Below, piece after piece: positions 29,301 through 36,429 of a DNA stretch of 64,000 nt. The position numbers and the translations under genes were made by a program. Location of the stretch: positions 15,484,245 through 15,548,244 of the forward strand of contig OZ038528.1 of the NCBI GenBank assembly GCA_964036665.1, in the 5' to 3' direction. The stretch comes from Gordius sp. MW1. Its lineage: Eukaryota > Nematomorpha > Gordioida > Gordea > Gordiidae. Under the pieces are notes generated by a model. It did not search any database and was not told where the DNA came from. It saw nothing but the letters and a program-made list of their open reading frames with translations. Each line of letters begins with the position of its first letter. The first letter of the stretch is position 1.

Positions 29301-32300
29301 GATTTTTAAATATATGATGCACACCACTAGAGACCTGCAAAATCGATTTTTTTAAGGCCCGGCCCGGCCCGGGCCCGGAATTAAAATGGGGAAATAGGCC
29401 CGGCCCGGGCCCGTATTTTAGCATCTTTAAAAACAAGGCCCGGCCCGGGCCCGGCCCGGGCCCGGCCCGGAATTTTAGTAATTGCAGAAACTTAATCAAA
29501 CTTAATTTTGGTAAAAAATTTATTTAAATAATAAAACAAAAAAATTTATAAATTGATAATAAAACTATTTTGATGCACAAAGCACAGCATCAAAAATTTC
29601 CGAGTTTTAGATTTTTTCTCCGCTCTTCATAAATATGGCCAGCTGACAAAAAACACCTATCACTCGAGGCCAAACAGGTGTCGAAAAAATCTTACAAACA
29701 AGAGGGCTAAGCGCTGGAAATGACAACTGTGGTCTTTCGACCAATCCGATAATTTTATTTTTTTTCTCGTTGATCTTTAATTTGTGTTGGTGTCAACTTC
29801 ATTTTCCTCTACCTCTTTATTCATATAAGATGTTTCATGCCATATCCATTCTACAAAATTGGGCTATTGAGGATATGAGATCTTTTCTGATTTTTGCAGG
29901 TTGTAATTGTTAAAAGTGGCTTGCATAGGTAATTGTCCAATTTTTATTTTCCTGGACTTCTTTACAGCATTTATGTTTTTGGAGATAGGTGTTCCATATT
30001 AAGCATTATCAAAACTAACATAAATATTGCCTGATGAGCAGGAATTATAGGATAACACATTCCTGTAAATCTTACAAAAAACAAAATTTATTTTCTTATA
30101 ATCTTTTCTATACTTCACTCTTTTCTCTACGATTTTCTTTTACTTTATAAAATTGTTTCTGAATATTTTCAGCTATTAGCAGTAGATTTTTTTTGTTCCA
30201 TACTTAAATGTTTGTATATTAGAATAAGCGCGAATGAATAAATGAGTGTTTAACAGATTCAATAAGTAATTAATTTTTTAAAATATTATAGATTGTTTTA
30301 AACAGAATAAAAGACTAATTAGACTCTTCTAAATTATTCCGGGCCGGGCCTATAATTTATAAATTAGGCCCGGCCCGGCCCGGCCCGGCCCGGAATTTTA
30401 TAGCCAAAAAAAATAAGGCCCGAGCCCGGCCCGGGCCCGTCCGGGCCCGGGCTTTTCCGGGCCCGGGCTTTTCCGGGCCCGGGCTTTTCCGGGCCGGGCC
30501 TCGGGCCGCCCGTGCAGGTCTCTACACACCACACACACAGAGTAACAAGCAAATAAAGGGAAATGCGAAATTTCAGGGAATAATGTGTTCTTTTACAGAT
30601 GGCGGGCGCTAATCTTATATAACATTTGCATTTATAATAGTGGTAAAAGAGGTTATTAATTTGAAATTAAACTTTTTCTATATTCATTTAGAATACTGTA
30701 TTCTTTAAAATTTTTTAAATTTGAATAATTGATATTTAACAATCAAAAAAAAATTGCTTAGCGACTGTATTTCATTCACAATATTTTTATATATAATACT
30801 ATACAGTATGATGCAAACACCAATGGACCTGACTTGGGGCTTGGAAAAAGGTGAAAAATCCACTCTAAAATGCCATAAAATTATGGAGGGATATTTCAAC
30901 GGCTTGTGATCAGTGTATTGGGACCTTGTTCATGAATTTTTGACTGTAATTCCAAGAATATTCGATAAATCTAATTTTCTAATAAAATATTTTCGAAAAT
31001 TTGTTTTTGGGAAAGGCATTTATTTATAAGTAAACATAAACGCCAAACTTTAAATTTATCCCAATAGAATTGATATAATTCAATGAGGTGCGACTCCATA
31101 CAGTCCCGAACTCTTTAAGGCTGATTTAATTAATTTATCTATGATTTAATATAGTTAAGAAATCTCCTTAAATTTAAAATTTAGGTATAATTTTGCTAAA
31201 ATATTTAAATCAAACATACTGTTCACATATTTGAAAGTAGCTATTGATGGACTAAAAACAAAAAAATTTATTAATAAATTATAATTTATATTTGAATTTA
31301 TAATTTTTTTTGATATTTTAATTAATTGATTGTTTGTTACTATACTTTGTAAGAGATCTTTTGGAAGGATTGAGTCGGTACTTTTTGATGATCTGACGCC
31401 CAAACATCTTTTGAAAGTATTCACTGTAAGACATCTCAAATTTGTCGCGAAAGGCCGATAACAATCGCTCCAATGGGTGGCGAACCACTATGAAAGTGAA
31501 ATACTTGGATAATCTTTGTTGGATTTCGCTCATGTTTAAGGCGCTGAGAAATTGAAAATTAGAACGGGCATGAGTTTGATCCGGTCTTATATCGAGGGGT
31601 GTAGGCCCCCCTTTACCCGCTAAAACTAGTAAAACTCTCTTCCAATTGGTACAGGCCACTTTGGGTACGTAGCAATAAATGAGTTTATTAGCATCGTCAT
31701 AGATAAAGTTTTTAAAATCGATTGGTTGCATATCGTCGATCGAAAAGTGAATTCCTTTGGGCGAAGTTAGGGATTCTTCATTGAATTTTAGAGAATTATC
31801 GGAATTAAGGTCATCCAAATCTTCACCCACCGTCTCCGCTATGATGTCTTTGAAATTAAATTCGCTCAATTTACCACAAATCTTTTTGAGGTCCAGAATC
31901 CTGCCTTTATGCTCCTCCTCCAAAATGGATAATTTGCGGCCTTTATATTCCGTCACATTCTAAGAAGCCCATAAATTGCATAGCAAAAGCAATTAATAAA
32001 AAATAAGACTTTCGCCATTGCAATATTTAAAATATAAAATGTGTTAAAAAATTTCATAGGGAATTGTTATACGTAAAAATTGCTCACCTCAGATCCTTCA
32101 TCGATGAGGCCATTATTCCATTTCTTAGAATATTCGAAGCTTACTGGATAAAAAAGGCAAAATTTTACGACTAACAACGTATAATGTCATATTCGTAGGA
32201 AAAATTTTAGAATATTATAATACATAATAATTATCTTATATTAATAATAAATACTTATACCATTGAACTTGAACTAACTAAAAAAATTTCTTACATGAGT

Positions 32301-33056: not shown

Positions 33057-33061
33057 GTTAG

Positions 33062-33675
33062 TGTAATGTCTGGCGACCGAGTAAAAGGGCTGCGCGAAGG
33101 ATTTAAAATAACTTTATTTACGCTAATACGTCTAAATATTTACAATTAAAGGCGATTTACAATTAAAGTGATTGGCGACGGTAAAATTGAAATGTTTCGT
33201 AAAATTACAATAAAAGGGGAAAGATGTAGGGATTGGGGACAATTACAAGGGTTTAGGAAGAGTACAAAGTTTTGGAAAAATTTATAAGGACTGAATTATT
33301 GACATGGGATTTCGCTTTTATAGCTGTTGAATCTTCCCAGAGTGGTGGACTTGATTGAACGAGCAATGTACGGGAAATCTTCAGACGGGGCTGCAAAAAT
33401 GAGTTCCATATGTGGCTGGGTTAAAAATTAAAATAAAAAGTAATTAAAAAAAGAAAGCGTCAAAGAAAATTAGCCACTTCCGCGTCTAGGTTAACCCGCG
33501 GTAAAAATGCCTTCCTTTGACCAATTCCTTTTTTTAATTATAAGGATTGCAGAACCGTTCTTTAACCCTTTTACATTAATATTAATAAAATAAATCTAAG
33601 TAAGATCAAAGTATACCGCGGACATTAAAACGCGATATACCAACATATGGTTACGTGGTATACACGTATACCACA
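33062..33675 (-). repeat. 3' LTR of gypsy element E2
   Basis: On the + strand it begins TGTAATGTCTGGCGACC and ends CGTATACCACA. 614 bp, one base shorter than the other LTR. Confidence 0.96.
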
Positions 33676-33687
33676 CCTTTCCCTTTT
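33676..33687 (-). other. Polypurine tract of E2
   Basis: AAAAGGGAAAGG on the - strand lies directly beside the 3' LTR and overlaps the stop codon of the preceding ORF. Confidence 0.8.
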
Positions 33688-34183
33688 ATTGCGAAGTCGA
33701 AGGGCCAGGGCTGTCCAAATTCAGGGTGTCCATAATCACCCCGGACTCCAGCTCTGTGATATCGTGGGGTTGGGTTGTCTTTCCCAAACCGGTTTTTAAT
33801 TTTAAGCACATTGGGGGCAGGTGTTTGGCCTTACACCCCCAACACTTCTTTCTTTTCAAGATCGGAGGACGGAGTAACGGTGGATTTCCAGATACGTTTC
33901 GTCGTTGCTCCCCGCTCGTATTTCCGTTTCTTCTGACCGCAGCCCCCTCCTGTCTTGGTCGTCTTGGAGATCTTGGGCGTTGTGGATACGACCTCCCGAC
34001 CTGGTCTGGCGGACCCAGAGAGTGCGTCAAGCTTAATAATCTTGCACTTTCGTCCGTCTCCACTTTGATTAGAATGTATACTGGAACTCTTTCGTTCCTT
34101 GATGCCGTAGATGTCACTTCCAAATCTACGTCGCACCAAGCAGCATTAATTCTCAACTGAATAGCAATAAACGTTGAACATAA
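33686..34183 (-). CDS. Env-position basic zinc-knuckle ORF (ORF3) of E2
   Basis: About 165 open codons in the same frame as the integrase, separated from it by a single TAA, with no in-frame ATG before the C-terminal third. Readthrough, splicing or a non-AUG start (TTG at 34156) would be needed. Layout: an N-terminal hydrophobic VPVYILIKVETDE segment, a Pro/Arg-rich basic middle, CWGCKAKHLPPMC (CX2CX3HX4C) around the two-thirds point, then an acidic/Ser-Pro tail ending TSQ. The zinc spacing, the MC end and the position match ORF3 of E1. No known domain was recognised. It is unlike an envelope protein. Confidence 0.65.
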   Translation of the reverse strand, partial: LCSTFIAIQLRINAAWCDVDLEVTSTASRNERVPVYILIKVETDESARLLSLTHSLGPPDQVGRSYPQRPRSPRRPRQEGAAVRRNGNTSGEQRRNVSGNPPLLRPPILKRKKCWGCKAKHLPPMCLKLKTGLGKTTQPHDITELESGVIMDTLNLDSPGPSTSQ

Positions 34184-34858
34184 TTATATAGCATCAAACA
34201 ATTTTAATTGTTCAGCATGCCTAATTTCAAATTTATTTTCCTTTAAGTCCTTAACTTTGTAGATTTTAGTACCTAACTGTTCAATAATTACACCTAACAC
34301 CCATTTAGGTTTACCCAAATAGTTTCGATACCAAACTCTTTGGTTTACCGTAAACTTTGGCACACTAATACTGGGCGATGTTTGGTGTTCAGTGAACCTT
34401 AAAAAGTCGGGTGGGTACCTTAATTTACGATTCAAAAACTCATAGCTAACCGGAGCACGATTAGGATACCGTGGTGACATATTGTGATAAAGTTTAGATA
34501 ACCACGTTCCGTCCTTCGTTACTTTAGCTATGTTCAACCATTTTTTAACAATACCTACATACCTTTCTACCTGCCCATTAGAGCTTGGATGGTACGGTGG
34601 AGTTAAAATATGGTTAATTTTATATTTTAAACAAAATTGTTTAAATTCGTTGCTAACAAAAGCTTTACCATTATCCGTAACAATTATTTCTGGAAACCCG
34701 TAATTCCCTATCAATTCCTTTAAAATTGTAATTGTTACTCTACTTGATATATTTGATATAATTTTAAATTCCGTCCAACCGGAAAACGCATCTACTATTA
34801 AGATGTACCGTTTTTTATCTAATTCGAAAAAATCTATGTGTATACGCTCCCATGGAAT
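34184..34858 (-). CDS. Integrase core and C-terminal domain of E2 (5'-truncated)
   Basis: Ty3/gypsy integrase, which inserts the element's DNA. The native part starts at about PWERIHIDFFEL and keeps all three catalytic residues: Asp in HIDFFE, Asp in VTDNGKAF and Glu in NGQVERYV. The C-terminal region (PPDFLR ... VWYRNYLGKPKW ... RHAEQL) follows. The N-terminal HHCC zinc finger is gone. Upstream codons in this frame come from the antisense host segment, so the open frame runs on to 34960 without being integrase. It is clearly related to, but distinct from, the E1 integrase. Without a start codon of its own, production of active protein is doubtful. Confidence 0.9.
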   Translation of the reverse strand: MPWERIHIDFFELDKKRYILIVDAFSGWTEFKIISNISSRVTITILKELIGNYGFPEIIVTDNGKAFVSNEFKQFCLKYKINHILTPPYHPSSNGQVERYVGIVKKWLNIAKVTKDGTWLSKLYHNMSPRYPNRAPVSYEFLNRKLRYPPDFLRFTEHQTSPSISVPKFTVNQRVWYRNYLGKPKWVLGVIIEQLGTKIYKVKDLKENKFEIRHAEQLKLFDAI

Positions 34859-35790
34859 CTCCCTACACGTTCCGCGTCTCAGCGTATAACGATTACGGTT
34901 GGAGTCCTTACTTGGAGAGCGACGAAATTTTAACTCTACCCCCTTACAATCGCATGCCATTGTACCCAGATCTCCCGCTAGTGCCGAGGTACGGACCCGA
35001 TTATGGGGACATAGATATGGAGTTCCCAGAAACTAAGTATTACGGGAGACGCATGTTATCGCCTTACGATAATATGTACGAAGATGAATGCGAGGATTGG
35101 TTAGTTCCAAGACACCCCGGGAGAATGATGGGAATTATTCAAATTCCAGAACCTCCGCTAAATTTGAGAATTGAGCGTTTGATTGGGATGGATTTGCAAT
35201 TGTTTTGGGATCCATCGATCGAAGAATATAACGATCGATTTTTGGGATATATGGTAGAAATGAGTGTTTGTGGAGGTGAATGGGTGTGTCTCAATGCTGC
35301 TCCCGTCTTGGAACATTTTTACGTGGTAACAAATCTTAACGAAGGTCAAGATTACGCGTTCAGAGTTAGAACCGAGACGATGTTTGGCCTATCACCACCT
35401 ACTGTGCCATCGAACACCATGTTTGTTGAATATTTTAGGGGTCCATTATTAGAAGAAAGAGTTCCTTACAAATTTAGAGTGCGACATTTTGAAGTTTTGG
35501 AAGCCATTTTTCCCCATTCAGGACTCATTGTTCGTGATATAGAATGGATGGTTGAAGGCGAAGTAATAGCGCCATCTTCCAAAAATTGGTGGATATGTCA
35601 CCCTGATCATATCGTGTTTTTTATACCAAAAGTGACGGCCGACTTTGCCGGACAGCATCACATAACGCTTTGGACCGATTACGGAATCGAGCATTTTGAT
35701 TTTTTTGTCACTATATTTGGGCCTCCTGGACCAATTGGTGAGCCGATATTAATTGATCAAATTTCAAAAGATGGGTGCTACCTCAACTGG
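34852..35790 (+). pseudogene. Captured titin/twitchin-like FN3-Ig coding segment
   Basis: About 310 codons open without interruption, antisense to the element. Residues 1-30 are the end of an FN3 domain (YTFRVSAYNDYGWSP). Residues 31-95 are a Pro/Tyr/acidic linker. Residues about 97-190 are a full FN3 domain (PPLNLRIERL, LQLFWDPS, YAFRVRTETMFGLSPP). Residues about 200-290 are Ig-like (WMVEGEV ... DFAGQHHITLWTDYG). From 291 a new FN3 starts (GPPGPIGEPILIDQISKDGC) and stops at ...LNW, where the primer-binding site begins. FN3/Ig arrays are typical of titin, twitchin or obscurin-type muscle proteins. The lack of introns over 0.93 kb, in a genome where exons average about 130 bp, suggests origin from mRNA. 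It is a gene fragment, not a functional gene. Confidence 0.88.
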
Positions 35791-35808
35791 ATCCCACTTC
35801 TGACACCA
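35791..35808 (-). other. Primer-binding site of E2
   Basis: On the - strand, TGGTGTCAGAAGTGGGAT lies one base after the 5' LTR. It matches the complement of an animal tRNA-Leu 3' end over 18 nt. Host-derived sequence begins at the very next base. Confidence 0.88.
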
Positions 35809-35809
35809 A

Positions 35810-36424
35810 TGTAATGTCTGGCGACCGAGTAAAAAGGGCTGCGCGAAGGATTTAAAATAACTTTATTTACGCTAATACGTCTAAATATTTACAATTAAAG
35901 GCGATTTACAATTAAAGTGATTGGCGACGGTAAAATTGAAATGTTTCGTAAAATTACAATAAAAGGGGAAAGATGTAGGGATTGGGGACAATTACAAGGG
36001 TTTAGGAAGAGTACAAAGTTTTGGAAAAATTTATAAGGACTGAATTATTGACATGGGATTTCGCTTTTATAGCTGTTGAATCTTCCCAGAGTGGTGGACT
36101 TGATTGAACGAGCAATGTACGGGAAATCTTCAGACGGGGCTGCAAAAATGAGTTCCATATGTGGCTGGGTTAAAAATTAAAATAAAAAGTAATTAAAAAA
36201 AGAAAGCGTCAAAGAAAATTAGCCACTTCCGCGTCTAGGTTAACCCGCGGTAAAAATGCCTTCCTTTGACCAATTCCTTTTTTTAATTATAAGGATTGCA
36301 GAACCGTTCTTTAACCCTTTTACATTAATATTAATAAAATAAATCTAAGTAAGATCAAAGTATACCGCGGACATTAAAACGCGATATACCAACATATGGT
36401 TACGTGGTATACACGTATACCACA
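35810..36424 (-). repeat. 5' LTR of gypsy element E2
   Basis: 615 bp, matching 33062-33675 throughout except for one extra A near 35830. Confidence 0.96.
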
Positions 36425-36429
36425 GTTAG

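Follow-up and report, generated by a model that had tools for sequence, protein, structure and literature searches.

A 64,000-nucleotide stretch of the Gordius sp. MW1 genome, hereafter called the window, contains a defective long terminal repeat (LTR) retrotransposon of 3.36 kb at positions 33062–36424. The element is sense on the minus strand and carries a spliced piece of a titin-like host messenger RNA (mRNA) in antisense orientation. We consider it likely that the plus-strand strong-stop DNA of this element, with a tail copied from tRNA-Leu, misprimed on the spliced titin-like mRNA during reverse transcription. An original prediction made from the letters of the window had recognised the element and its host insert but missed the tRNA-copied tail at the join, which gives a possible reason for the antisense orientation.

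The marks of integration can be seen directly. The target-site duplication GTTAG is present at 33057–33061 on the left and at 36425–36429 on the right. The 3′ LTR (33062–33675, minus strand) and the 5′ LTR (35810–36424, minus strand), delimited by LTR comparison, begin with TG, end with CA and show no substitutions, with a single 1-base difference in an A-run. Next to the 3′ LTR is the polypurine tract AAAAGGGAAAGG (33676–33687, minus strand), the plus-strand primer, and the same motif precedes the 3′ LTR in other copies; a tRNA primer site adjoins the 5′ LTR. Terminal TG and CA, a short duplication, a primer site and a polypurine tract are all features of Ty3/gypsy LTR retrotransposons. Between the polypurine tract and the primer site there is nothing other than an open frame downstream of integrase (33689–34183, minus strand; no Pfam match), the 3′ end of pol from the integrase catalytic core onward (34187–34857, minus strand) and, on the other strand, 941 bp of host sequence (34857–35797, plus strand). 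The integrase core (Pfam rve, E 1.5e-14) is the sole pol domain kept. A relative on C8 (L041 and L042) has the domains CCHC, RVP, RVT_1, RNase H, H2C2 and rve, in the order of a Ty3/gypsy pol, and pol of the window element meets the host segment near position 1281 of L042. Judged by this domain order, the family is of the Ty3/gypsy kind. Thus the near-identical LTRs, duplication, primer site and integrase on which the original prediction was built were seen again, and its proposal of very recent movement agrees with LTRs that carry no substitution. It had the host segment replacing gag, protease, reverse transcriptase and RNase H; these are indeed gone, but so are the leader and the integrase zinc domain.

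To identify the source of the insert, we searched the 211.8-Mb host genome with 34860–35800. Of eight matches, one was the segment itself and one a 55-bp piece on C7; the other six were blocks of a single gene. The parent gene lies at G000:C1:8181499–8183241, on a different contig from the element, and the segment is split over six of its exons, which are 97–100% identical to the insert, far above chance. Five introns of 387, 161, 91, 94 and 75 bp, all GT-AG, are missing from the insert to the base, and therefore spliced mRNA was captured, as the original prediction had supposed from the lack of introns. The insert is the spliced mRNA of an identifiable parent, as in LTR-mediated retroposition, and the six exons exclude the case that the prediction had named against itself, in which element sequence would flank a single genomic exon with the same 0.93 kb. 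The limits given for the segment, 34852–35790, were corrected to 34857–35797, while its description as an open host coding segment stands: the plus-strand frame across it is open over 34768–35814. On the minus strand, the frame 34184–35032 reads without a break from antisense host sequence into the integrase core, an in-frame fusion.

The host segment lies on the plus strand and the integrase core on the minus strand, so that the antisense capture by a gypsy element that had been proposed is borne out. The same final orientation would result if the minus strand had switched template, as in LTR-mediated retroposition, onto an antisense transcript of the titin-like gene, and microhomology-guided switching between an LTR element and mRNA is a model described in passages of PMC5408686. 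An antisense transcript would not splice at the sense-strand GT-AG sites, yet all five introns are gone, and on this point the explanation fails. It also leaves unexplained a join within tRNA-copied bases and an association over 25 junctions, both described below, and we consider it very improbable.

The insert differs from the assembled parent by 7 substitutions in 938 bases and 3 extra bases (about 99% identity). Six of the seven substitutions are synonymous third-position changes, with codon positions worked out by hand. These differences would fit the mRNA of another allele or a change in the parent since capture, and by its sequence the insert does not look like the product of long neutral decay. 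The whole-genome search revealed no second full copy of the captured segment and no other spliced copy of the parent gene; an older capture passed on to many copies was rejected because a single full copy was found. The chimera is known from the assembly and could in principle be an assembly artefact. The target duplication, the near-identical LTRs and the substitutions that separate insert and parent make this hardly credible, as do comparable joins in further copies, two of which were confirmed to have target duplications of their own.

The parent appears to be titin-like, and from that likeness it is a putative muscle gene. Of the FN3-Ig-FN3 arrangement originally proposed for the insert, Pfam recognised one FN3 domain (E 8.6e-10) and neither the Ig domain nor the flanking FN3 parts, which are instead indicated by an alignment of insert residues 96–312 of 313 to titin chains among solved structures (E 4.2e-42; titin was the best structure). 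At the 9.9-kb parent locus (L009) we tested seven open frames: three match fn3 or I-set above the Pfam cutoff, one matches fn3 just under it (24.0 vs 25, E 4.4e-5) and three match nothing. The parent thus has the tandem FN3 and Ig domains of a titin-like gene. A search of the captured segment against a large protein set returned nothing at E <= 1e-3 (268 candidates), and that set seems to be without relatives of this animal.

The junctions of the element and host sequences, and the bases copied from a tRNA at one of them, are likewise read directly. Microhomology is present at both switch points, 8 nt on the primer-site side and only 1 nt (34857) on the integrase side. At the primer-site join the last eight bases of the antisense host sequence are GTGGGATC, inside the 19-nt primer site in its tRNA-copied form, TGGTGTCAGAAGTGGGATC (35790–35808, minus strand; compared with the tRNA-Leu gene in L105). 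The 8-nt overlap, GATCCCAC at 35790–35797, is common to the tRNA-Leu copy and the host mRNA; within the 9.9-kb parent locus such a site has a single occurrence on the sense strand. The tRNA-Leu(UAG) gene of the species, of which one was examined in full, ends GGTTCAAATCCCACTTCTGACA. CCA is added to the tRNA 3′ end, and the complement of that end with CCA is TGGTGTCAGAAGTGGGAT, 18 nt as far as A58. In HIV-1, copying of the primer tRNA halts mainly at A58 owing to 1-methyladenosine at this position (m1A58), according to passages of PMC13191261. At the primer site of ordinary family copies, the match to tRNA-Leu is limited to about 10 nt and is followed by TTCGCCC or a near variant and then the leader. 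The bases AGTGGGAT past the first 10 nt occur in none of the 19 copies with this genome-type site and match the 3′ end of the tRNA-Leu(UAG) gene, and thus were copied from the tRNA.

The 19th base of the tail is C in all four copies whose tail is 19 nt long and whose continuation is known (the window copy, L079, L083 and L024), where the tRNA-Leu gene would give T; by our arithmetic the chance of this is about 0.004. Misincorporation of C opposite m1A58 is only suggested, since in each of the four cases the continuation supplies C too. As a separate observation, GGTTCNNATCCCACTTCTGACA occurs at 85 genome places, about 64 of which by eye read GGTTCAG where the tRNA gene reads GGTTCAA, that is, G at tRNA position 58, and at the two places examined closely (L047 and L101) CCA comes next. 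The GGTTCAG places look like reverse-transcribed tRNA-Leu tails changed at m1A58, or like the primer sites of another family.

To place the window copy among its relatives, we examined all 25 places found by a genome pattern search for the exact LTR end plus primer site; the resulting counts cover exact matches and leave out copies with a mutated LTR end or primer site. Nineteen junctions have the genome-type site, and the normal leader comes next in every one (79–100% identity), shortened or rearranged in five. The other six have the tRNA-type site (in L094, its first 16 nt only). The leader follows in just one of these, L024, which turns to inverted pol sequence about 190 nt beyond the junction, and is missing from the remaining five (Fisher p = 1.1e-4 vs genome-type). 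A looser second pattern gave eight places, the same six and two without this LTR end. The five ectopic tRNA-type copies continue into foreign donors (two), the element's own 3′ part (two) or sequence without assignment (one).

In the window copy, the tRNA-type tail enters the titin-like mRNA antisense through the 8-nt overlap. In L079 (C1:19139840; target duplication GTCTT) the tail is joined by a 6-nt overlap, GGGATC, to 30 nt, after which comes the element's own 3′ end. The 30 nt occur at one other place in the genome, C7:13450056 (two places in total at <=2 mismatches). At this donor region no second copy was found at the protein level; an open frame of 273 codons, in which Pfam found no match, runs on the strand antisense to the captured piece, compared with 88 codons on the other strand. 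From these frames the donor is probably coding, and the L079 capture would probably be antisense to its coding strand. In L083 (C3:14531660) the tail runs straight into the element's own polypurine-tract region; its 5′ flank piece, L109, does not contain the LTR end. In L094 (C8:810560; duplication GTAGT) 16 nt of tail and a TT filler are followed by the element's own 3′ part. Finally, L085 (C3:24991280) has a 3′ LTR, then the tail, then sequence without an assigned source, and L098, taken for the 5′ end of this element, has no LTR.

The same host-to-tRNA-Leu join is found once more, in a 63-bp piece at C7:14216989–14217051 (L010 5990–6052) with 92% identity and 5 mismatches. It ends exactly at the tRNA CCA and has no LTR beside it; an FN3 exon belonging to another gene is about 0.4 kb away. 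Derivation from a paralogous exon was rejected, as the piece has 10 of 11 tRNA-copied bases beyond the host homology. Either the piece predates the window copy or the same complementarity was used in a second event, and it is perhaps an older independent tRNA-mRNA chimera. In the same locus, several long minus-strand frames (L010 2–4178) resemble what we take to be a BEL/Pao retrotransposon.

These observations lead us to the following mechanism for the window copy. Synthesis of plus-strand strong-stop DNA would start at the polypurine tract, cross the LTR and enter the attached tRNA, and the product would normally yield, or transfer, to the primer-site region on the minus strand; the genome-type primer sites suggest that the family normally does not inherit the tRNA copy. 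Because only about 10 nt of the genomic primer site match the tRNA, the last 8–9 nt of the tail would be unfitted there, leaving the 3′ end free for pairing elsewhere. The tail, ending GTGGGATC-3′, would have annealed to GAUCCCAC in a packaged mRNA and been extended along it, and extension of a plus strand on mRNA gives an antisense, intron-free capture, as in the window and probably in L079. A second switch, at the 1-nt overlap, would then have taken synthesis back to element DNA at the integrase core, and the resulting molecule would have integrated. Here we infer the intermediate, the order of synthesis, the packaging of the mRNA and the completion of all steps in a single cycle.

Another explanation is that the mRNA was turned into cDNA independently of the element, for example by a long interspersed nuclear element (LINE), and that this cDNA was end-joined or autointegrated to a broken element, the overlap being repair microhomology. 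The integrase-side join, with its single shared nucleotide, could have formed in this way, and inversions and head-to-head LTRs in L064–L066, L077 and L024 indicate that cDNA end-joining seems to occur in the family. However, end-joining does not account for the tRNA-copied bases at the join or for their near-confinement to ectopic copies, and the genome search found no spliced copy of the gene elsewhere. We therefore regard it as unlikely as an account of the element as a whole.

Several points weigh against misprimed strong-stop DNA. The return switch into integrase has only a 1-nt overlap, L083 likewise overlaps by just 1 nt, and L094 departs after 16 nt with a TT filler and zero overlap. 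Foreign donors are seen in only two of the six tRNA-type copies; for one of these, L079, the coding strand of the donor is assigned from its open frame, and the sequence past the L085 tail may be plain flank of the 3′ LTR. The mechanism does not account for the C7 63-bp fragment, with the same join but no LTR. The intermediate, like the mechanism, is deduced from genome sequence. Extending the proposal beyond the window copy, we lean towards the view that the tRNA-copied strong-stop tail of LTR elements whose primer sites are short is a recurrent ectopic primer that gives defective copies and antisense mRNA captures with a tRNA signature at the join. Some mRNAs would then be hot spots, and the titin-like mRNA, with the same join on C7, could be one because it happens to complement the tail.

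The family is young and recently active: nine LTR pairs differ by 0–2 substitutions per ~614 bp. The pairs are those with both LTRs located among the best 41 matches listed (40 of 322 candidates scored), and being drawn from these best matches the sample leans to copies close to the window element. Short copies on C4 (L043), C7 (L044) and C6 (L046) were considered and set aside as deletion derivatives without host sequence. The head-to-head LTRs of L064–L066, L077 and L024 are accompanied by inverted pol segments, as after autointegration or snap-back synthesis. At about 910–1420 in L068 a truncated 5′ LTR is followed by ~0.5 kb without an assigned source and then integrase; this 545-bp unmatched stretch and the unmatched parts of L045 and L047 were examined, and no match was assigned to them. 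The C8 relative has an internal copy of the polypurine motif, AAGGGAAAGG, at L042 778–788, between RNase H and integrase, where plus-strand synthesis may have a central start. Breaks at L042 positions 951–1281, some 160–500 nt downstream of this motif, are present in six rearranged copies (window, L044, L046, L066, L068 and L077). Elsewhere in the window, a piece of a sulfotransferase gene (31321–31959, minus strand; Pfam Sulfotransfer_2, E 1.1e-32) is located some 1.1 kb left of the element. A scan of the 64-kb window by ARAGORN with the bacterial code gave no tRNA, and Rfam returned nothing on five short loci.

A transcript from the 5′ LTR would hold 941 nt complementary to the titin-like mRNA at ~99% identity, with a hypothetical effect on it. 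The antisense or small-RNA activity originally envisaged depended on many copies, and the captured segment was found in full only once; with one full copy, the antisense transcript and the in-frame fusion are unlikely to be more than incidental. The wider interest lies in the join. Through the errors of tRNA-copied strong-stop DNA, a step known for the most part from biochemical work on yeast and retroviruses becomes readable in a genome, and a simple reason is provided for the backwards capture of a host mRNA. Other genomes can be searched for the tRNA-copied bases as a marker, which makes it possible to count instances of this route and to test it.

In oncogenic retroviruses, transduction places host coding sequence in a retroelement via read-through or sense-oriented capture. 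The window capture is instead antisense, and in this orientation the host protein would not be made from the element's sense transcript. Pieces of host transcripts in LTR elements are known in plants (Bs1 and others) and animals, as passages of PMC5408686 and PMC13317346 relate, and the window element resembles Bs1 and other plant LTR elements in carrying host gene fragments. Passages of PMC5408686 describe LTR-mediated retroposition in animals (work of Tan et al. 2016), in which an LTR element likewise carries a piece of spliced host mRNA, and the two cases share the spliced fragment, microhomology at the join and an integrase-type insertion. The window capture differs in being antisense and in starting where the primer site ends in tRNA-copied bases. 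The model reviewed in those passages has the switch occur during cDNA synthesis from the tRNA primer (PMC5408686); by our own reasoning rather than a published criterion, minus-strand switching would give a sense-oriented insert, and the host segment is antisense. The passages from PMC5408686 and PMC13317346 contain neither antisense capture nor a tRNA-tail join, and the words antisense, orientation, tRNA and plus-strand are absent from PMC13317346. In searches of an open-access library we did not find capture from a tRNA-copied plus-strand strong-stop end, or the antisense signature, described, which is no proof of absence. In Ty1 and Ty3, tRNA-copied plus-strand strong-stop DNA is displaced and the inherited primer-site bases do not normally come from the tRNA (Lauermann and Boeke, as summarised in PMC5371799), and dead-end strong-stop DNA with 12 nt of tRNA copied accumulates in Ty3 particles (PMC5371799). 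Unlike these dead ends, the copies described here that keep a 16–19-nt tRNA copy integrated, mostly with wrong continuations that include host sequence. Capture of host transcripts by LTR elements was already known, and what is new is the join at the tRNA-copied end of the primer site.

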